64,000 nt of DNA from Massilia violaceinigra (GTDB lineage Bacteria > Pseudomonadota > Gammaproteobacteria > Burkholderiales > Burkholderiaceae_D), in assembly GCF_002752675.1 (NCBI RefSeq), contig NZ_CP024608.1:5890001-5954000 (forward strand), written 5' to 3'. Position numbers and translations under genes: made by a program. Under the pieces are notes generated by a model. The model ran no database searches and had not been told where the DNA came from. It was given only the letters and a program-made list of their open reading frames with translations. Below, piece by piece: positions 29,701 to 43,234 of the stretch (position 1 is its first letter; every line of letters starts with the position of its first letter).

Positions 29701-31270
29701 CCCGGATATTTCGTGAGTAGAGGTCGGCGATCCCGTGCCGCAGCGCGTTGTTACTGGTATCTGACGCCAATCACAACCGGGGACCGCCGATGCCAAATTG
29801 TACCAATGAACCGATCAAGTTGGGGAGGGTTGGACGGCGCGTCGTTGAGGCGTCATTCGACGGCGGCGACATCGTCAGCGACGGCGGGGTTCTGCTGCTG
29901 CGCCAAGTGGATCAGCGCATCGGCTTAAGCAAAGCGATTGCGCGCGTATTCGAGGATCGACGCCGTCGTGCCAGCGTTTCGCACAGCATGCGCGACTTGC
30001 TCGCGCAGCGCGTGTACGGCCTGTGCTGTGGCTGGGAGGACGTCTGTGACCACAATGTGCTGCGCCGCGACTTGGCCATGCAAACGGCAGTGGGCCGGGC
30101 CGATGACTTGGCCTCGGCGCCGACGCTGAGCCGGCTTGAAACGTCCTCCACGCGCGCGTAGGCGGCCGCCCTGCATGGCGTTCTGCTCGATCAGTTCATC
30201 GCCAGCAAAGCTAAGCGGCCCAAGGAACTGGTGCTCGACATCGATGCCACCCACATGCCGCTGCATGGAGAGCAAGAGAAGTCCCACTTCCACCGCTACT
30301 ACGACAATTACTGTTACTTGCCGCTGTACGTCTTTTGTGGCCAGGATATCCTCGCCTGCGTCTTGCGGCCCAGCAGCCGCGATCCGGCCGGTATCCTCAG
30401 CGCATTAATCAAATTGATCTCCCGGCGCTTGCGCCAGGCTTGGCCACGCATCCGCATCATCGTGCGCGGCGATTCCGGGTTCTGCCGTCATCAAGCTCTG
30501 CGCCGCTTCGAGAAATGGGGGCTGCACTATATCGTCGGCTTGCAAAAGAACTCAGCGTTGCTGCAACGAGTAGAGTTGGCCGAACTGGCACTGGCCGAGA
30601 TGTATCAGAAGGCCGGTTCCAAGCAGCGCATGATTGGAGAATTCACTTATGCGGCGGGGACGTGGGATCGGCAACGGCGCGTCATCGCGCGGCTGGAACA
30701 CGATGCGCGCGGCGCCAACCCGCGTTTCATCGTCACCAACCTGACTGGGGGTCCCAAGGCACTGTACGAACGCGTGTATTGCGCCCGTGGCGAAGCAGAG
30801 AACCGTATCAAGGAGGCGCAGCTCGATTTGTTCGGACGCCGTGCGAGCTGCCATAAATTCCAGGCCAACCAACTGCGGCTGCTACTGGCAGCGTTCGCCT
30901 ATACCCTGATGATCAATTTGCGCCGCCTGGCTTTGGTTGGCACGGAACTGGCACGCGCCTGCACGGCGACGATCCGCATCAAACTGCTCAAGATCGGCGC
31001 GGCCGTCGTGCGCAACACGCGGCGCGTGCGCGTCATGCTCGCATCCCAACATCCACTCAAGCACGTCTTCCTCACTGCCGCCCGCGCGCTGGCACCATAA
31101 GCCCGCCAAGTGCTGTCCCCGGCACGCTATAAAGCAACGGGGGTAGGGGGAGTTACGTCTGCAATCAGGCCGCGCGGCAGAACCGACACCAGGAAGCGAG
31201 CAATCAACATGCCGCAGCCATGTTCGGCGCACCCCGGCCCTCAGATTGGCAGACTCATGAAATATCCGGG
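29701..31270 (+). mobile_element. IS1380-family insertion sequence, 1570 bp
   Basis: The element is bounded by near-perfect inverted repeats, CCCGGATATTTCGTGAGT at 29701-29718 and its complement (one mismatch) at 31253-31270. It is flanked by CTAG duplications. It carries one transposase gene, interrupted by a stop codon. The intact ends and matching target duplications mean that it inserted as a unit and could still be moved by a transposase supplied in trans. It lies in the spacer between the 5'-nucleotidase gene and mfd, ending 90 bases before mfd. Confidence 0.9.
29790..31100 (+). pseudogene. IS1380-family transposase interrupted by an in-frame TAG
   Basis: A single reading frame from ATG 29790 to 31100 (436 residues if read through) encodes a DDE transposase. 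Asp in VLDIDATHMPLHG, Asp in IIVRGDSGFCRHQ and Glu in GEAENRIKEAQLDLFG are the likely catalytic triad. The frame is broken by TAG at 30159-30161, between SRLETSSTRA and AAALHGVLLDQF. Relatives have a Gln-rich join here, so CAG-to-TAG is the simplest change. The downstream part alone (from ATG 30231) keeps all three acidic residues but lacks the N-terminal DNA-binding region, so the element is probably not autonomous. Confidence 0.9.
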
Positions 31271-36337: not shown

Positions 36338-37582
36338 CTATCGTCTGGCTGTAATCCTCGTTCGATCGAGGTTATGCGGGTTCTTCGCCTGCTCCACTGG
36401 CACGGCGTTGATTGTCAGGATGCCCCAGATGAAATCGTTGGCGACGATCTCGGCCGGCAGTTTCACCGTGCCCATGGGGTGCGATGTGAGCTGTTTGAGG
36501 TACGGACTGCCGTCGCGGCTGAAGCCCGCGCTGGCGTGGCAGGAGATGCACGAGGAACGCTTGATCGGAATCCCGGCCGCGACCCGCTCGGTGAACGAAT
36601 TGCCGTGCATGAGCGGCTCTCCGCCGGGCGCCACGAAGGCGATTTCGGACGCCTTGAGGCAGTAGTTGTGCCATGCCGGCGCCACGCGCTTGACCTCGAG
36701 CAGTTTTTTCAAGGCCGGCGTCTTGGCGCAGTCGCCGTACTGGCCGTTTTGCGCGCCGGCCAGCGGGACAATCCTGCGCCGCGCCGCGCCATAGCTGTCG
36801 TTGCAGCCCATGGTGTCGCAGCGGCCCGGATTGAGGCGGTGCTCGAAGCTGGCCCAGACCCAGTTGGGCGCATCCTTGGAGCTGATGTGCATGGCCACCA
36901 TCGCAAAGCTGGTGTCCTGCGCGGTCGTGGTGTGGAACTGGGCGCGCACCTGCGCCGCGTTCAGGCGCACGCCGTTGCGTCCCAGCCAGGCGACCAGGGT
37001 ATCGACCGGCACCCAGTCGGCCTTGACCTGGACCGCGTCTTCCGGCAGCGATACGCGCCAGCCGCCCTGCGCCTTCTGGTAGGCGGCGGCCAGCCCGGCC
37101 TGGGTATGCAACTGGTTCTGCACGATGTAGCGGTAGGTGGCGAGGTTGCGTCTGACTTCTTCGGCAAAGCACGGCGCCTGGCCGGGCTGCGCGGCCTCGA
37201 CAGGAAAATTGCCCGAGGTGGCATTGGCCACCGCGCCGCAGTCGCCGCTGGGGGCACCGAGGCTGCCGTGGGCGGCCAGCACGCGCTGCAGCACGCTGCT
37301 GCGCAGGCGCCGCGGGCCGGCGTCCTCGCCCGGCCAGGCCGGGGTCTCGGTGTAAATGTCTTCGTCGGCGGCCCAGGTTTCGAACTGGACCCGGCCGCGC
37401 CCGGCCGGCGCCACGATGCCCGCGAAGTGCTGCCATGCCAGCCGGTCGGAGTGGATGCCGCTCGCCAGCAGGCCGCCGCTGGCGCCGACCGCGCCGGCGG
37501 CGCGCGCCGGCAGGTCCACCGCCATCGCCAGCAGCGCCATGCCGATCAGGATCCAGTCACGCAGCTTCAAGCATGACTCCAT
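36338..37582 (-). CDS. Exported protein with one CxxCH haem-binding motif
   Basis: The 414-residue product has a hydrophobic N-terminal segment (WILIGMALLAMAVDLPARA) acting as a signal peptide. One c-type haem site, CISCHASAGF, lies around residue 348. The region between is rich in Trp and Arg and includes a lysine/asparagine-rich stretch ending in DSYGAARRRIVPLAG. It is thus a putative periplasmic monohaem cytochrome-like protein; no known cytochrome family is recognised with confidence. It overlaps the end of the threefold-repeat gene by 26 bases and shares its sigma-54 promoter. A terminator follows. Confidence 0.75.
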   Translation of the reverse strand: MESCLKLRDWILIGMALLAMAVDLPARAAGAVGASGGLLASGIHSDRLAWQHFAGIVAPAGRGRVQFETWAADEDIYTETPAWPGEDAGPRRLRSSVLQRVLAAHGSLGAPSGDCGAVANATSGNFPVEAAQPGQAPCFAEEVRRNLATYRYIVQNQLHTQAGLAAAYQKAQGGWRVSLPEDAVQVKADWVPVDTLVAWLGRNGVRLNAAQVRAQFHTTTAQDTSFAMVAMHISSKDAPNWVWASFEHRLNPGRCDTMGCNDSYGAARRRIVPLAGAQNGQYGDCAKTPALKKLLEVKRVAPAWHNYCLKASEIAFVAPGGEPLMHGNSFTERVAAGIPIKRSSCISCHASAGFSRDGSPYLKQLTSHPMGTVKLPAEIVANDFIWGILTINAVPVEQAKNPHNLDRTRITARR

Positions 37583-38381
37583 AGGCGGTAATGCCGCTCG
37601 GCGGGGCTGATTTGTGCACCTTGCGGGCGGCGAACCACCCGGTCAGGCGGCCGTCCTGGCTGCTGATGATGGGACACGAGGCGCTCAGCATCGTGCCGCG
37701 CCCGTTTTCGCCCACCAGCGCGCCGCCGCCGGCCACCACGGCATTGCCGTGGGGCGCCGCCACCAGCGCGCTCGGGTAGCCGGTCAGGAGGCTCGTGTTC
37801 GATACGATGTGGGCTTCCAGCGCCACGTCCGGCCCGGTGCGGATGCCGATCACGAACGCGGTCACGCGCGCCTGGTCGGCCGCGTCGTGGTCGCGCCCGG
37901 ACGCGCTCCAGCCGCAGATCTTGCCGTCGGCGCCGATCAGCGGGTAGCTGGCGGTGAGCATGTTGCCGTTGACGGGGGTGGCGTAGTTGTCCTGGGCGCC
38001 GCCACCGGTGCCGATCCAGCCGGCGCCGAGCTTGACGCTCACGCCGGGCTCCGACACCAGCGCGCTGGTGGCCGAAAACACTTGCTGCTCGACCTTGACC
38101 GGCACGCCGTCGCGGGTGATGCGGATGCCGACCGCGTACACCGCCAGCGGCACCGGGTCGGCCAGGCCGAAATCGCGGCCGGCCGCGGTCCAGCCGTTGA
38201 AGACGCCGGCGTGATTGCGGGTCGGGTAGCAGGCGGTCAGCGTGTTCGAGGTGCCGCGGCCCATGTCGTAGGCGCCGCCGCCGGTCAGCGTAAAGCCGGG
38301 CGGCAGCCATACCTGGGCCGTCGGCCCGGTTGCCCGGGTGGCCACGCCAACAAATGCATAACTCTCGATCACGATACCCAT
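37557..38381 (-). CDS. Threefold-repeat beta-rich protein, function unknown
   Basis: From ATG 38381 (GGAGAGA upstream) the 274-residue protein consists of three related units at about residues 20-90, 111-182 and 202-272. Each has GGGA, then [ML]xTA[CS]YP or LSASCP, then GW[TS]A.GRD (third copy GWFAARK), and ends in VYAVGIR, AFVIGIR or AYGVMLE. There is no signal peptide, no transmembrane helix and no catalytic motif. The beta-rich repeats suggest a beta-prism or lectin-like fold, but this is inference. It is the first gene after a perfect sigma-54 promoter and is divergent from an FHA-type sigma-54 activator, which points to tight inducible control. Confidence 0.8.
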   Translation of the reverse strand: MGIVIESYAFVGVATRATGPTAQVWLPPGFTLTGGGAYDMGRGTSNTLTACYPTRNHAGVFNGWTAAGRDFGLADPVPLAVYAVGIRITRDGVPVKVEQQVFSATSALVSEPGVSVKLGAGWIGTGGGAQDNYATPVNGNMLTASYPLIGADGKICGWSASGRDHDAADQARVTAFVIGIRTGPDVALEAHIVSNTSLLTGYPSALVAAPHGNAVVAGGGALVGENGRGTMLSASCPIISSQDGRLTGWFAARKVHKSAPPSGITAYGVMLEAA

Positions 38382-38443
38382 GTTCCCAACTCTCTCCGGC
38401 GGATTAGCCACTTGCAGCCCGACAAGGCCACGCTTAGGTACAT

Positions 38444-38459
38444 AGCAACTCCCGTGCCA
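38444..38459 (-). promoter_or_regulatory. Sigma-54 (-24/-12) promoter
   Basis: On the minus strand the sequence is TGGCACGGGAGTTGCT, a full match to the TGGCAC-N5-TTGC consensus with the extra conserved G and final T/A. Transcription would start near 38434, giving a leader of about 50 bases to the ATG at 38381. It needs an ATP-dependent activator, and one is encoded divergently at 38699. Confidence 0.9.
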
Positions 38460-38480
38460 CACTGATAAGTGCGCAAATGG

Positions 38481-38640
38481 CATGTCAATTCCTTAATTTA
38501 CAAGGCAAAACATGTCAACGGGCATGTAAAGGCGCCCCTATTTACATGTTCAGAGGCAAGATGACGCGGATGGGTCCGGAGGGGATAGGACGCGAAACGT
38601 GTAAAACACGTGTAAAGCGCAGTCCCTTTACATGTCAACA
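38481..38640. promoter_or_regulatory. Cluster of TTTACATG / CATGTAAA / CATGTCAA half-sites
   Basis: Within 160 bases there are CATGTCAA (38481), CATGTCAA (38511), CATGTAAA (38523), TTTACATG (38541), CGTGTAAA twice (about 38598 and 38609) and TTTACATGTCAA (38628). Opposed copies would make the palindrome TTTACATGTAAA. They stand about 50-210 bases upstream of the predicted sigma-54 start, the usual place for enhancer sites. The divergent activator gene is the natural candidate for binding them. Confidence 0.65.
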
Positions 38641-38656
38641 ATTGCCGGGCTTGCTC

Positions 38657-38662
38657 TATAAT
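38657..38662 (+). promoter_or_regulatory. Probable -10 box of the FHA-type sigma-54 activator gene
   Basis: TATAAT lies 37 bases before the GTG start at 38699. The TTTACATGTCAA half-site at 38628-38639 covers its -35 position, so binding there could repress or activate the regulator's own gene. Confidence 0.5.
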
Positions 38663-38698
38663 TGGCAATTACTAAACGCTGTGCCATGGAGCCGAACG

Positions 38699-40276
38699 GT
38701 GAATGATGTTGATAACACGCTGACGACACAGCTTTTCTCGCAGAAAAATGGCATCACCAGTGCCTTGCTCGGCCTGACGATCCTGTGGCACCCGGAAACC
38801 GAGCGCATCGGCGAGCAGTTCATCGGACCGGCCGAGGAAGGCGCGATCGAGGTGTGCCGCTACGCTCCGCTGTTTTTCCGTCCCGGCCAGGATGGCATCG
38901 CGCTCGGCCACCGGGCGATCGCGCGCGCGCCGCTGATGGTGCGCCGTACCGCCGACGACGGCGTCGAACTGGCCGCGCCCGACAGCCGCATGGCGCTCGA
39001 AGTCAATGGCACGCTGCTGAGCGGCACGCGCAGTTTTACCCGCGACGAGGTGGCCGCCGGCGTGGTGCTGGGCCTGGGCGGCCATGTGCTGCTGTGCCTG
39101 CACTGGATGACGAGTTTCCCCCGCCCTAACCTGTTTCCCGGCCTGCTGGGCGTGAGCAGCGGCGCCATCGCCACGCGCGAACTGATCCGCCAGGTGGCGG
39201 GTACCGACCTGGCCGTGCTGCTGCTGGGCGAAACCGGTACCGGCAAGGATGTGGCCGCGCGCGCGATCCATCAGGCCAGCAAGCGCAGCGCCAATCCGCT
39301 GGTGGCGGTGAACATGGCGACCCTGAGCGAGTCGCTGGCCGCGGCCGACCTGTTCGGCGCGGCCAAGGGCGCCTACACGGGCGCGCAGGCGCCGCGCCAG
39401 GGACTGTTTGCCGAAGCCGATGGCGGCACCCTGTTCCTCGACGAGCTGGGCGACACGCCGGCCTCGGTGCAGCCGATGCTGCTGCGGGTGCTGGAAACGG
39501 GCTGCTACCGCCCGCTCGGCGCGAGCCAGGATGCGCGCACCACGGCGCGCCTGATTGCCGCCACCGACCAGGATCTCGACGCGCGCGGATTCAACCAGCC
39601 TTTGCTGCGCCGCATGGAAGCGTTCGTGATCCGCGTGCCGACCTTGCGCGAGCGGCGCGAGGATATTGGCGTGCTGCTGCTGCACATGCTCAAGGGCTGC
39701 GGCTTGAAAGCCGAGGAGCTGGCGGCCTTTCCCCCGGCGCTGGTGAGCGAGATGTGCAATTACGACTGGCCGGGCAATATCCGCCAGCTGGCCAATGTGG
39801 CGCGGCGCATGGTGATGGCGCTGCAGGCGGGCGAGCGCCCGCTGCTGTCGCAGTACGTGCAGGCGCCGGCGCCGCTGCGTTCGGCCAGCGCCAGCCTGGC
39901 CGCCCCGAACGGGCAGCCGCACGGGCAGGCACACGAACAGCCGCGCAGCGCCAGCCTGAAAGCGCCGCTCGATACGGCGCCGCGGCGCAAGCTGGCCGAG
40001 GTCAGCAACGATGACCTGCTCGGCGCGCTGGAAGAACACGGCTGGCAGATCAGCGGCGCGGCCCAGCAGCTGGGCCTGTCGCGGCCTTCGCTGTACAAGC
40101 TGATCGAAGCGCATCCGGCAATCCGCCCGGCGGCCCTGATTCCGCGCGACGAACTCGATGCCGCCCTGCGCGCCCATGGCGGCGACCTGGCCCTGTGCGC
40201 CTCGCTCCTCAAAACCCCGAGCGAGGCGCTGCGCCGCCATTTGCGGGTGCTGGGCCTGGACGCCGGCACCAGCTAG
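38699..40276 (+). CDS. FHA-domain sigma-54-dependent transcriptional activator
   Basis: The frame is open further upstream, but the GTG at 38699 follows a promoter and gives a normal N-terminus, 525 residues. An FHA-like domain (about residues 30-137) precedes an AAA+ domain with Walker A GETGTGKD (177-184), the sigma-54 contact loop GAYTGA (224-229), Walker [10 protein letters not shown] (244-252) and [11 protein letters not shown]. The C-terminal region ends in a Fis-like helix-turn-helix, [23 protein letters not shown] domains bind phosphothreonine peptides, so phospho-signals should control it. The divergent sigma-54 promoter and the neighbouring Ser/Thr kinase make it the centre of a likely circuit. 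GAYTGA differs from GAFTGA only by the aromatic residue. Confidence 0.93.
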
Positions 40277-40286
40277 CTTATCCGGA

Positions 40287-40910
40287 TCAGGCCGGCAAGC
40301 CGCCGATGACTTCGCCTTCCGGCATGCAAGCGACGCCGTCGTCGGTGTCGCCCATGTCCGGCGGAGTAACGCCGGCGCCGACCACGCCTTCCGGATCGAA
40401 GACGAACACGCGCGTGTCCTGCTTGCCGGAGCGGCGCGTGATCTCGACGGTCAGCACGAATGACACTTCCCAGCGGCCGGTATCTTCGCCGACGGTGAGG
40501 AAGTTGTCCCATTTGCGCGAGATCGTGTGGTATCTGCGTCCGTCATCCTCGCTCTCCCTGGCACGGGGCGGGCCGAATTCGTCCGGAGCGATCGCCACGC
40601 AGGCGCCGGCCACGCCGTCGAAGGGCGACGGGCTGGCATAGGTGGCCAGCTGGCCGGGGGCGATACAGACGATTTGCGGGCGGGTAATGAGGGAGCAATC
40701 GAGCACCTTGAACGACTCGAACTTCTCGTAGCCGCCCGCGCGTACCTTGATGTGCACCAGTTCGCCCATGGTGAAGTAGATGGCGCCGGCGTACCGGCCC
40801 GTGAGCGGGTTGCCATCCCCATCCTTGCGGCTGAACTTCCATTCCAGCGTTTCGCCGATCTGGTTGATGTCGAAGTTTGCTTCAAGAAGCATCGATGTCG
40901 GTTTCTTCAT
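40287..40910 (-). CDS. Unknown protein coupled to Ser/Thr kinase gene
   Basis: The 207-residue product has no signal peptide, membrane helix or recognised motif. It is rich in beta-type segments (AGAIYFTMGELVHIKVRAGG, WEVSFVLTVEITRRSGKQD) and ends in an acidic/glycine-rich tail. Its ATG overlaps the kinase stop in an ATGA arrangement, so it is translated with the kinase. It could be a kinase substrate, a phosphothreonine source for the FHA activator, or a secreted inclusion-type protein. None of these can be shown from sequence. Its 3' end is 10 bases from the convergent activator gene. Confidence 0.75.
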   Translation of the reverse strand: MKKPTSMLLEANFDINQIGETLEWKFSRKDGDGNPLTGRYAGAIYFTMGELVHIKVRAGGYEKFESFKVLDCSLITRPQIVCIAPGQLATYASPSPFDGVAGACVAIAPDEFGPPRARESEDDGRRYHTISRKWDNFLTVGEDTGRWEVSFVLTVEITRRSGKQDTRVFVFDPEGVVGAGVTPPDMGDTDDGVACMPEGEVIGGLPA

Positions 40911-43075
40911 TTATCACTTTCTGTGGTGGAATCAAAGTACCGCGGGTCGCGCCGCAGCGCGATCAGATCGGGCTCGGCGTTGATGAGATGGATGGGATAA
41001 CCTCGCTGGCGCGCCGCCGCCAGCTCCGCCAGGGCGCGCTCGCGCTCGCCCAGCAGTTCGTAGGCCATGAGCGCGCGAAAGCGCAGGTTGGGGTCTTCCG
41101 GCCGCATTTCCACGGCGCGCCGGGTATGCTCGAGCGCGGCGGCACGCTCGCCCAGGCGCGCTCCGTACAGCCCCATGCGCGATTGGAAGGTGGCGTCGCC
41201 CGGGGCATCGCTCAGCATCGGCTTGAGTATCCCGATCGCTTGCCGGTAAGCCTTGCGCGAATCTTCCTCGCGCCCCGGAATCCAGCGCAGGGTGTCGCCC
41301 AGGTTAGCCCAGCGCAGGTAATCGGACGTGGTCGCGAACGGGGGCGCGACGGCGCGCTCGAACGCCTCGGCCGCGCCGACGTAATCGCCGCGGTTGAACA
41401 AGGCATTGCCCAGGTTGGTGTAGAGCGTGCCCGTCGGACGTACCTGCAAGCCTTGCTGCAACACTTGCAGACTTTCATCCATGCGATTCTGGCGCTGCAA
41501 GGCAAGGCTGAGGTTGCCGTAGGAGGTGACCGTATCCGGTTGCAGCTTGATGCTGCGCCGGAATGCCTCTTCGGCAGCCTTGAGCTGCCCCTGCTCGAAA
41601 TACAAGGTACCCAGCAAATCCTGCAGCACGTGGTCGGCCGGATAGATCTTGATCGCATCGCGCAAAGTGCGTTCGGCCTCGCCATAGCGGCGCGAACGCG
41701 TCAGGGCGTTGCTCTTGGTAATCAGGCCGAACCAGTTGAGCGGGTCGAGCCGCAAGGCATGGTCGGCCAGCGACAGTGCCTCCGGCAGCCTGCGCTGGCC
41801 GGCGCGCACGGTCGCCTGGGCCGCGTAGCCCAGCGCCAGCTGGCTGTTGAGCTTAATGGCGAGCTGGGCACTGGCATCGGCGCGCTTGAGCCAGGCAGCG
41901 TCGCGCTGATCGCTGGTTTGCTTGAAGCTATAGGCAAACGACAAGCCGGCGGCGGCGGCGGCATGATTCGGATCGCGCTCGAGAATGGCGCTGAAGCTGC
42001 GCACCGCCAGGTCGAGGCTCTCGGGACGCTCGAAGGTCCGCAGCGCCGTCAGTCCGGTCTGCATCGCCGTCGCTTCCGAAAAGAAGGGATCGTTGCGCTG
42101 GTACCAGTCGTTGAGCACACCGCTGCGCAGCACGCCGCCCACCCCGATCGCCAGCGCGGCCAGGACCATGGCAATCTGCACTTTCTTCTTGCCGAACAGC
42201 GTCGCCGCGCGTTCGCGCCCGCCCTTGCCAGCCTCGGCGGGGATGGAGGCGGGGTTCAGCTGGCGCAGCACCGCATCCTGCACCGCCTGCATCGAGGCCA
42301 GCCGGTCCTCGACCTTGCGCGCCGTCATGGCGCGCACCAGTGCGATCACGCCCGGCGCGGTTTGCGCCGGGAACGGCCACAAGTCCGAGGAAGATTGAAT
42401 GTGGGCGGCGGCCAGCGCCAGCCCGCTCAGGTGCGAAAACGGCCGGGTACCGGTCAGCAATTCATACATCACCACGCCGAGCGCATACACATCGCTTTGC
42501 GGGCTCAGCGTGGAGCCCATCATCAGTTCCGGCGCCAGGTAGGCGATGGTGCCCTCAGTCTGGTCGAACGCGATCGATTCGGTCGCTTGCGGATCGATCT
42601 TGCGCGCCAGGCCGAAGTCCATGATGCGCACCTTGCCGGACGCGTCGAGCATCAGGTTGGCCGGCTTGATATCGCCGTGGATCAGTTGGGCCGCGTGGGC
42701 TTCGCGCATGGCGTCGGCCACCTGGGCCACGATGTCGAGAACTTTGTCTTGGGACATCGGACCGCGCTTGCCCGCTTCGCGCAAGGTGCAGCCATCGACA
42801 AATTCCATTATGATCGACTGGTGGGCCGCGTCGCCCTCGATCGAGAAGATGCGCACAAAGCCCGGATGGCGCAACGACGCGGCAAGGCGCGCCTCGTCGA
42901 GCAGGTTTTCCGGCCGCGACGACAGCAATTGCGGTTTGAGTCGCTTGATGGCGATGGTACGCTGCAGCTTAGAATCCCAGGCCTCGTATACCTGCCCGAA
43001 GCCACCCTCACCCAACAGACGCTTCAGCCGATAATGACCCAGTTCTTGCTCATCCACCTGCAAATCGCGCTCCAC
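40907..43075 (-). CDS. Membrane Ser/Thr protein kinase with C-terminal TPR repeats (non-RD)
   Basis: The 722-residue protein has a kinase domain with GEGGFGQVYEA (about residues 22-32), the ATP-binding Lys in AIKRLK (about 44), the catalytic loop HGDIKPANLML (133-143), DFG (153-155) and APEL (181-184). HGD replaces the usual HRD, which makes it a non-RD kinase whose activation would not depend on loop phosphorylation in the standard way. One membrane helix (about residues 298-318) leads to a C-terminal part with about nine TPR-type repeats (LNNLGNALFNRGDYVGAAEAF-like). The outside TPRs may sense a partner. The FHA activator encoded next to it is a likely downstream element. Confidence 0.93.
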   Translation of the reverse strand: MERDLQVDEQELGHYRLKRLLGEGGFGQVYEAWDSKLQRTIAIKRLKPQLLSSRPENLLDEARLAASLRHPGFVRIFSIEGDAAHQSIIMEFVDGCTLREAGKRGPMSQDKVLDIVAQVADAMREAHAAQLIHGDIKPANLMLDASGKVRIMDFGLARKIDPQATESIAFDQTEGTIAYLAPELMMGSTLSPQSDVYALGVVMYELLTGTRPFSHLSGLALAAAHIQSSSDLWPFPAQTAPGVIALVRAMTARKVEDRLASMQAVQDAVLRQLNPASIPAEAGKGGRERAATLFGKKKVQIAMVLAALAIGVGGVLRSGVLNDWYQRNDPFFSEATAMQTGLTALRTFERPESLDLAVRSFSAILERDPNHAAAAAGLSFAYSFKQTSDQRDAAWLKRADASAQLAIKLNSQLALGYAAQATVRAGQRRLPEALSLADHALRLDPLNWFGLITKSNALTRSRRYGEAERTLRDAIKIYPADHVLQDLLGTLYFEQGQLKAAEEAFRRSIKLQPDTVTSYGNLSLALQRQNRMDESLQVLQQGLQVRPTGTLYTNLGNALFNRGDYVGAAEAFERAVAPPFATTSDYLRWANLGDTLRWIPGREEDSRKAYRQAIGILKPMLSDAPGDATFQSRMGLYGARLGERAAALEHTRRAVEMRPEDPNLRFRALMAYELLGERERALAELAAARQRGYPIHLINAEPDLIALRRDPRYFDSTTESDK

Positions 43076-43097
43076 GTCGTCTGGTTATGTAAACATT

Positions 43098-43126
43098 TCC
43101 ATAGTGTACATGTAGGAAGGTGTCAA
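43098..43126 (-). promoter_or_regulatory. Probable sigma-70 promoter of the kinase operon
   Basis: On the minus strand TTGACA (43126-43121), a 17-base spacer and TATGGA (43103-43098) form a promoter 23 bases before the ATG. The spacer contains CTACATGTACAC, and ATGTTTACATAA lies just downstream, both resembling the TTTACATG half-sites found at 38481-38640. Confidence 0.6.
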
Positions 43127-43234
43127 TGACAAAAAAGTTTCGTATGATGTCATCGTTGTAACAAGCTGTAAGTAGCCGCGCCGCCAGCGGCCGTTTGCCT
43201 ATAGTGATCGCATCGGAATGAGGAGTTTCCCGTC

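Follow-up and report, generated by a model that had tools for sequence, protein, structure and literature searches.

Comparative sequence analysis of a kinase, small protein, and sigma-54 activator core with proposed exchangeable target genes in Massilia and related bacteria

A 64,000-nucleotide stretch of the Massilia violaceinigra genome, referred to here as the window, contains a locus of five genes (positions 36338-43075) that encode a Ser/Thr kinase, a small protein, a sigma-54 enhancer-binding protein (EBP), a threefold-repeat protein, and an exported protein with a CxxCH motif. Comparison with other genomes indicates that the kinase, the small protein, and the EBP form a conserved core of three parts, with an operator that can be read from the sequence, and that target genes vary by lineage while the core and operator appear constant. 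We favor a model, to which we assign a probability of roughly 0.6, in which these three proteins constitute a signaling core with exchangeable output. A preliminary description of this DNA had proposed that the kinase and activator control the repeat protein and the CxxCH protein. That circuit is right in outline and wrong in tying the output pair to the module; the core role of the small protein, the operator, an N-terminal threonine motif in the EBP, and a switch of promoter type were overlooked.

Results

Conserved linkage of the kinase, small protein, and EBP

Features of the locus are listed below in window coordinates.

40907..43075, minus strand: Ser/Thr kinase, 722 amino acids (Pfam; alignment of 13 orthologs)
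40287..40910, minus strand: small putative partner protein, 207 amino acids, a beta sandwich with DPExxVG at its end, followed by a disordered tail
38699..40276, plus strand: sigma-54 activator (EBP), 525 amino acids, with TLTT motif, FHA-like region, AAA+ domain with GAYTGA, and Fis-type helix-turn-helix (HTH)
38717..38719, plus strand: codon for Thr7 of the EBP, candidate phospho-acceptor
38482..38638: predicted operator array (upstream activating sequence, UAS) of eight RTGTMAA half-sites at 38482, 38512, 38524, 38541, 38599, 38610, 38627, and 38632
38627..38638: exact inverted-repeat operator TTTACATGTCAA
38635..38662, plus strand: predicted sigma-70-type promoter of the EBP gene, TCAACA-16-TATAAT
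38444..38459, minus strand: sigma-54 promoter, TGGCAC-GGGAG-TTGCT
37557..38381, minus strand: output gene 1, threefold-repeat protein, 274 amino acids, with the fold of the PCSK9 C-terminal domain (resistin-like)
36338..37582, minus strand: output gene 2, exported CxxCH (c-type heme) protein, overlapping output gene 1
43103-43132: promoter-like block of the kinase, TTGTCA-18-TACACT

The EBP gene is convergent with the kinase and small genes, and 10 bp separate its end from that of the small gene. The genes for the repeat protein and the CxxCH protein diverge from the EBP gene. Pfam and NCBIfam name two of the five proteins, the kinase and the EBP; the small protein, repeat protein, and CxxCH protein have no match above the curated cut-offs of these two databases.

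Distribution was examined in 116 genomes of the family, used as one set for all five genes, and in 53 named loci retrieved by a scan with the N-terminus of the EBP, the genomes of which are partly shared with the 116. The pairing of kinase and activator in the preliminary description is supported. Kinase orthologs occur in 15 of the 116 genomes and full-length EBP orthologs in 11; 10 genomes contain both (Fisher p 3.9e-10), and the two genes are adjacent in 10 of these 10. The kinase is present in 44 of the 53 loci and lies within 1.5 kb of the EBP gene in the convergent arrangement in 39 of the 44. Five of the nine kinase-less loci harbor a second EBP paralog in two-component clusters (L142, L148, L150, L153, L164), three (L126, L129, L157) have contig ends within 4 kb, and one (L121) lacks the kinase outright. 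The combination of kinase, small protein, and EBP also occurs in two further families of the order (L185, L186). At most 9-12 candidates were scored per genome in the searches with the kinase and EBP queries, neighboring genes were called by a simple in-house gene caller, and the counts of 10, 15, and 11 among 116, together with those of 29/32 and 0/5 given below, were tallied by hand.

Its distribution marks the small protein as a conserved third member of the core. Its gene (40910-40287) overlaps the kinase stop codon by ATGA, which agrees with the coupling noted in the preliminary description. The protein exists in two length classes of about 207 and about 120 amino acids that are homologous (hhalign probability 90.2, E 1.6e-6) and that both end in DPExEVG. 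A hidden Markov model detected it in 39 of the 44 kinase-bearing loci and in none of the nine kinase-less loci, three of which are on short contigs. The long form is found in 10 of the 116 genomes, all 10 of which contain the kinase. Five genomes of one genus retain the kinase and small protein and have no EBP, which argues that the small protein goes with the kinase. The small protein shows only weak similarity in fold to the PixA/AidA family (PF12306), too little for us to adopt that assignment.

Kinase

The kinase matches Pfam Pkinase with an E value of 1.3e-51 and also matches tetratricopeptide repeats (TPRs), consistent with its initial designation as a non-RD Ser/Thr kinase with TPRs. 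The non-RD kinase domain (residues 15-268) is followed by one transmembrane (TM) helix at about 298-316 and a TPR region at about 340-720. Residues characteristic of Hanks-type Ser/Thr kinases (K44, E61, D135, N140, and D153-F-G) are invariant in 13 orthologs, and HGD replaces HRD in all 13 aligned sequences. The N-terminal side of the single TM helix is the more positively charged in 13 of 13 orthologs; the TPRs are therefore predicted to be periplasmic. Upstream of the gene, which has the promoter-like block at 43103-43132, ATGTACACTA is kept in most of eight aligned loci.

EBP and its N-terminal threonine motif

The EBP contains an AAA+ domain with Walker A/B motifs and a GAFTGA-type loop, as expected for a sigma-54 enhancer-binding protein (Sigma54_activat, E 5.2e-49), and a DNA-binding domain (HTH_8, E 1.2e-8). 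The genome contains a single copy of rpoN. Conservation of the N-terminus places the likely start at GTG 38699 rather than at the start of the open reading frame (ORF) at 38477. The resulting N-terminus carries the motif D-x-T-L-T-S/T, in which Thr7 is invariant in 31 of 31 sequences and is the only invariant residue before Leu24. This motif is visible in nearly all EBP loci; one lineage reads TQT, L159 shows none at the apparent start, and that of L152 lies upstream of the matched start. The second EBP paralog of the window clade (L097, L098, L142, L148, L150, L153, L164), found within clusters of two-component genes, no longer has the GAFTGA loop and carries Lys in place of the Walker B Glu; it keeps a TLASP motif. 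The region that follows the threonine motif is divergent and weakly FHA-like. Within it, Arg54 is invariant in 31 of 31 sequences; by motif analogy, we take Arg54 and the Ser of an SRxH motif to be phosphothreonine contacts. The sigma-54 activator of the preliminary description is confirmed; the FHA label attached to it is weak.

Sigma-54 promoter and operator

The window contains one exact match to TGGCACN5TTGCW, at 38459-38444 on the minus strand. Genome-wide, this bare pattern occurs at 12 sites compared to 9 in a reversed control; it is hardly enriched, and we rejected it as stand-alone proof. The pattern match by itself proves little, and we accept the promoter because it is conserved among loci that contain the repeat gene: the site is exact in seven of nine (window, L114-L118, and L120), with varying spacers; L119 deviates from the pattern at one position, and the interrupted locus L158 at two. 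A perfect sigma-54 promoter divergent from the activator, as originally reported, is thereby upheld. The repeat gene likely starts at 38381 and not at 38483, which places its start downstream of the promoter.

Alignment of the gap between the EBP gene and the promoter in eight loci of the window clade revealed four conserved blocks (ACATGTCAACGNGCATGTAAA, ATTTACATGTC, ACGTGTAAAACACGTGTAA, and CTTTACATGTCAAC) within a variable stretch; L119 and L120 share these blocks only in part. A further block at the predicted EBP promoter, TATAATTGGC, is kept in six of the eight. The half-site RTGTMAA and the inverted repeat TTKACAYGTMAA were derived from this window-clade footprint together with a listing of 7-mers that included other lineages, and both pattern degeneracies are present within the window clade itself. 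Within 300 bp upstream of the EBP gene, there are 46 half-sites in the eight clade loci (shuffle mean 1.5, maximum 6). Another 40 loci, from other lineages, have 82 (shuffle mean 5.0, maximum 13), and 23 of these 40 contain at least two. Expressed per 300 bp, these densities are 5.91 in the clade and 2.57 in other lineages, compared to 0.38 in other intergenic regions. No half-site was found at five EBP paralogs, a zero of little weight since it covers only 138 bp of intergenic DNA across all five.

Across 54 loci (1.03 Mb), there are 40 copies of the inverted repeat TTKACAYGTMAA and none of the reversed pattern. At a looser cut-off, 32 of the 40 exact operators have an outward-facing -24/-12 site 20-250 bp away, compared to 12 of 282 control intergenic gaps. 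A strong sigma-54 site stands in UAS geometry at 25 of 41 half-site clusters; 0.66 would be expected at random positions, which include coding DNA, and the stricter control of 282 intergenic gaps without half-site clusters gave three (sigma-54 sites were scored with weights set by hand). We propose that TTKACAYGTMAA, with its half-site RTGTMAA, is the operator of the EBP and usually lies 37-170 bp from a -24/-12 promoter. The evidence that the EBP acts from upstream sites on such promoters is at the level of sequence only. At the window locus, the predicted array sits between the EBP gene and the promoter of the repeat protein. The exact operator at 38627-38638 overlaps the predicted -35 region of the EBP gene's own promoter, which suggests autoregulation.

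A wider operator regulon was considered and rejected: in the whole genome, the exact pattern occurs at three places (the window, 5080310, and 6544591), no more than in the control. No half-site cluster surrounds the exact site at 5080310 (L183) or a site with one mismatch (L184).

Exchange of target genes

The genes found beside the operator and a sigma-54 site differ from lineage to lineage. In the window clade, the neighbor is the repeat protein; in L135, L138, L140, L141, and relatives, it is an AAA_16 protein (Pfam on L138, which we read as having an N-terminal HTH). L144 has a DUF1842 protein, L161 a haem-oxygenase-like operon, and L163 a protein related to the c29 family described below, with other genes elsewhere. 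A flavin amine oxidase accompanies the operator in L128, L132, and L166 (Pfam on L132), with a weaker AGGCAT site. L156 was considered as a LodA-LodB pair and rejected, as its second gene encodes DNA polymerase III alpha.

Both proteins of the output pair exist as first described. The repeat protein has three modules in a pseudo-threefold beta fold of the PCSK9 C-terminal, resistin-like type, and 100 of the 103 homologs of the gene at 36338 have CxxCH. Their membership in the module is not supported by the comparison. The repeat protein occurs in 3 of the 116 genomes and in 8 of the 53 loci and is confined to the window clade. The CxxCH protein is full length in 2 of the 116 genomes, with weak partial matches in three more, and, across the window and the 53 loci, only the window, L114, and L115 have its gene at full length. 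In three species, the gene is reduced to an ORF of 64 amino acids (L116:8691-8885, L117:8690-8884, and L118:8690-8884) in which only the N-terminal anchor and the last 26 residues remain. The CxxCH gene is dispensable in sister species.

Loss of the GAFTGA loop and apparent change of promoter class

EBPs of sigma-54-linked loci have an intact GAYTGA loop. The loop is degenerate in L123, L134, L136, L137, L139, and L155, which read GAYPGA, GAHIGA, GAYAGA, GAHAGE, a deletion, and GALPGV, respectively. In five of these six loci, an exact TTTACATGTAAA lies upstream of a gene of the c29 family that precedes the EBP gene. No -24/-12 site was found in these five loci, and a TTGAC box lies exactly 20 bp beyond the operator in all five; elsewhere, an operator with TTGAC 18-22 bp away occurs in two loci (L115 and L119, on the other strand). 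The -10 hexamers are poor to fair. Among operator-bearing loci, a sigma-54 site accompanies 29 of 32 intact loops and none of five degenerate loops (Fisher p 1.3e-4, uncorrected for shared descent). The c29 family is related to the target gene in L163 (best E 1.8e-12, 28% identity), which is accompanied by two operators and a perfect sigma-54 site. Related targets thus have a sigma-54 site and operators in L163 and an operator with a TTGAC box in the loop-less lineage. In the latter, the operator would occupy a class-I-like position before a sigma-70-like promoter, the loop that contacts sigma-54 having been lost. Promoter type appears to change with loss of the loop, with one operator common to both kinds of ortholog.

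Other observations in the window

Two neighboring ORFs at 29748-31100 resemble an interrupted transposase, presumably of the IS1380 type. A defence system was considered and rejected; PADLOC matches resemble generic kinase and AAA+ matches.

Discussion

Our model for the pathway is as follows. A single pass of the kinase through the inner membrane would leave the catalytic domain on the cytoplasmic side and the TPRs on the periplasmic side, where the TPR domain may sense an envelope cue. The small, translationally coupled beta protein would be a partner of the kinase, since it stays with the kinase in genomes that have no EBP and is not found where the kinase is absent. Active kinase would phosphorylate the EBP at Thr7 (or Thr9/10), within the D-x-T-L-T-S/T motif. 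The phosphorylated tail would then dock on the FHA-like domain of the same or a neighboring subunit, rather as in PknG-GarA/OdhI, releasing the AAA+ ring. The EBP would act from TTKACAYGTMAA on a -24/-12 promoter, the half-site array serving that of the repeat protein. The output would be exchangeable; lineages may swap target genes while core and operator stay, and one lineage may have moved to a sigma-70-like promoter. We are more tentative, at somewhat under even odds, about the fullest form of this proposal: a complete Ser/Thr-kinase-to-sigma-54 pathway, with a TPR membrane kinase switching the EBP through a GarA-like phospho-tail, that serves as a plug-in module with fixed core and operator and swapped outputs, one lineage of which went from sigma-54 to sigma-70 as the GAFTGA loop was lost.

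Several observations weigh against the model. The FHA-like domain is divergent, and phosphorylation of the EBP and docking of its tail are therefore steps that we infer. Pfam FHA does not match the window EBP and matches only one of 31 relatives (E 0.085). The best FHA evidence is an E value of 0.0035 to chain 3gqs, which we take to be an FHA domain (the entry title reads adenylate cyclase-like protein), and hhalign of the region against three FHA domains of the same genome gave a probability of 0.5%. At the position of the Ser in SRxH, presumed to contact phosphate, the window clade has Ala; many other relatives keep the Ser. Consequently, the earlier idea that the kinase makes a phospho-signal read by an FHA activator gains from the linkage of the two genes and is weakened as to the reading of a phosphopeptide. 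The threonine motif may not serve this kinase alone, since kinase-less EBP paralogs keep TLASP. Of 54 loci, 17 lack an exact operator: five paralogs, L136, and 11 loci with an intact loop. Three of the 32 intact-loop loci with an exact operator have no sigma-54 site at the cut-off, and loop-less L136 and a relative in G079, the loop of which is also degenerate, have no exact operator. The operator is not enriched genome-wide (65 compared to 77 in the control at two or fewer mismatches), for which reason the regulon looks local. Finally, the counts are not independent, as loci share descent and the 116 genomes overlap with the 53 loci.

It is conceivable, if unlikely, that the small protein or another direct ligand controls the EBP, much as PspA controls PspF, and that the kinase acts elsewhere and is merely co-located. 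The position of the small gene between kinase and EBP in most loci fits such control, as do the weak FHA evidence and the Ser-to-Ala change. However, the small protein follows the kinase, being kept in the five EBP-less genomes and not seen without the kinase in the 53 loci; kinase-less EBP paralogs are also without it; and Thr7 is the sole invariant residue before Leu24 in 31 sequences. We consider it quite improbable that the kinase and EBP are separate circuits in one mobile cassette, the EBP regulating itself and driving its neighbor. EBP paralogs do occur without the kinase at 5 of 53 loci, the kinase occurs without the EBP in one genus, and outputs change freely, but the tight convergent arrangement is found, amid diverging flanks, in 39 of 44 loci, recurs in two other families of the order, and is matched by 10/10 adjacency in the 116 genomes.

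Least probable, in our estimation, is that the locus is a threonine phosphorylation regulator (PpkA-Fha) of a type VI secretion system (T6SS) stripped of its secretion genes. The preliminary description had noted the lack of secretion genes at the locus, and none is present among the genes scanned there; in one genus (g6), however, kinase orthologs without an EBP adjoin T6SS genes in three of five genomes. The kinase and small genes of this genus adjoin PAAR in L093 and L096; in L092 and L182, their neighbors are TssF, TssG, and VgrG, and a PAAR-like gene lies farther along. Against such an origin, no T6SS genes were seen in 15-kb stretches of two of the five g6 genomes (no search of the remaining EBP loci as a set was made for T6SS genes), the kinase carries TPRs, and its presumed partner is a transcription activator.

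The signaling core that we favor has parallels in known systems. GarA has an N-terminal ETTS motif and acts as an intramolecular switch. The TPR domain of PknG influences selectivity for its FHA substrate, and PknG phosphorylates OdhI (PMC8546545). The two systems share a kinase with C-terminal TPRs and, in our proposal, a target that is the N-terminal Thr motif of an FHA or FHA-like protein. They differ in that the target here is a sigma-54 activator rather than a metabolic inhibitor, a TM helix separates kinase from TPRs, and the FHA assignment is weak. The likeness is one of motif conservation only, and we do not class the locus as a member of that system.

FHA-domain EBPs of Myxococcus xanthus, reportedly described by Jelsbak in 2005 (cited in PMC4320627), are expected to receive input from Ser/Thr kinases and resemble the present EBP in having an N-terminal FHA (here FHA-like) domain in place of a receiver. 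We know of no fixed kinase-small protein-EBP locus or operator for them. T6SS clusters include a membrane-associated kinase, an FHA protein, and sigma-54 activators (PMC10482370, PMC9993120). The locus resembles PpkA-Fha-PppA with VasH-type EBPs in its membrane kinase, FHA-like domain, and sigma-54 activator; unlike that pathway, it has no secretion genes, we noticed no phosphatase, and the EBP itself carries the FHA-like domain as a fusion. Some EBPs without GAFTGA act on sigma-70 promoters, namely Rhodobacter capsulatus NtrC, Caulobacter NtrC, and VspR (PMC10274813). They share with the loop-less lineage a lost sigma-54 contact loop and sigma-70-type control. In contrast to those proteins, orthologs with and without the loop use one operator here, and promoter type appears to follow. 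Among the literature matches listed, we recognized no description of this locus or operator.

How Ser/Thr kinases feed into bacterial transcription through FHA-type activators is poorly resolved. The present system is compact, occurs in many relatives of Massilia, and offers a promoter, a defined operator, and a phospho-site that can be predicted; each step is open to testing. Comparison of its lineages provides a natural case of an activator that apparently changes sigma factor while its binding site, and apparently its target family, are kept.
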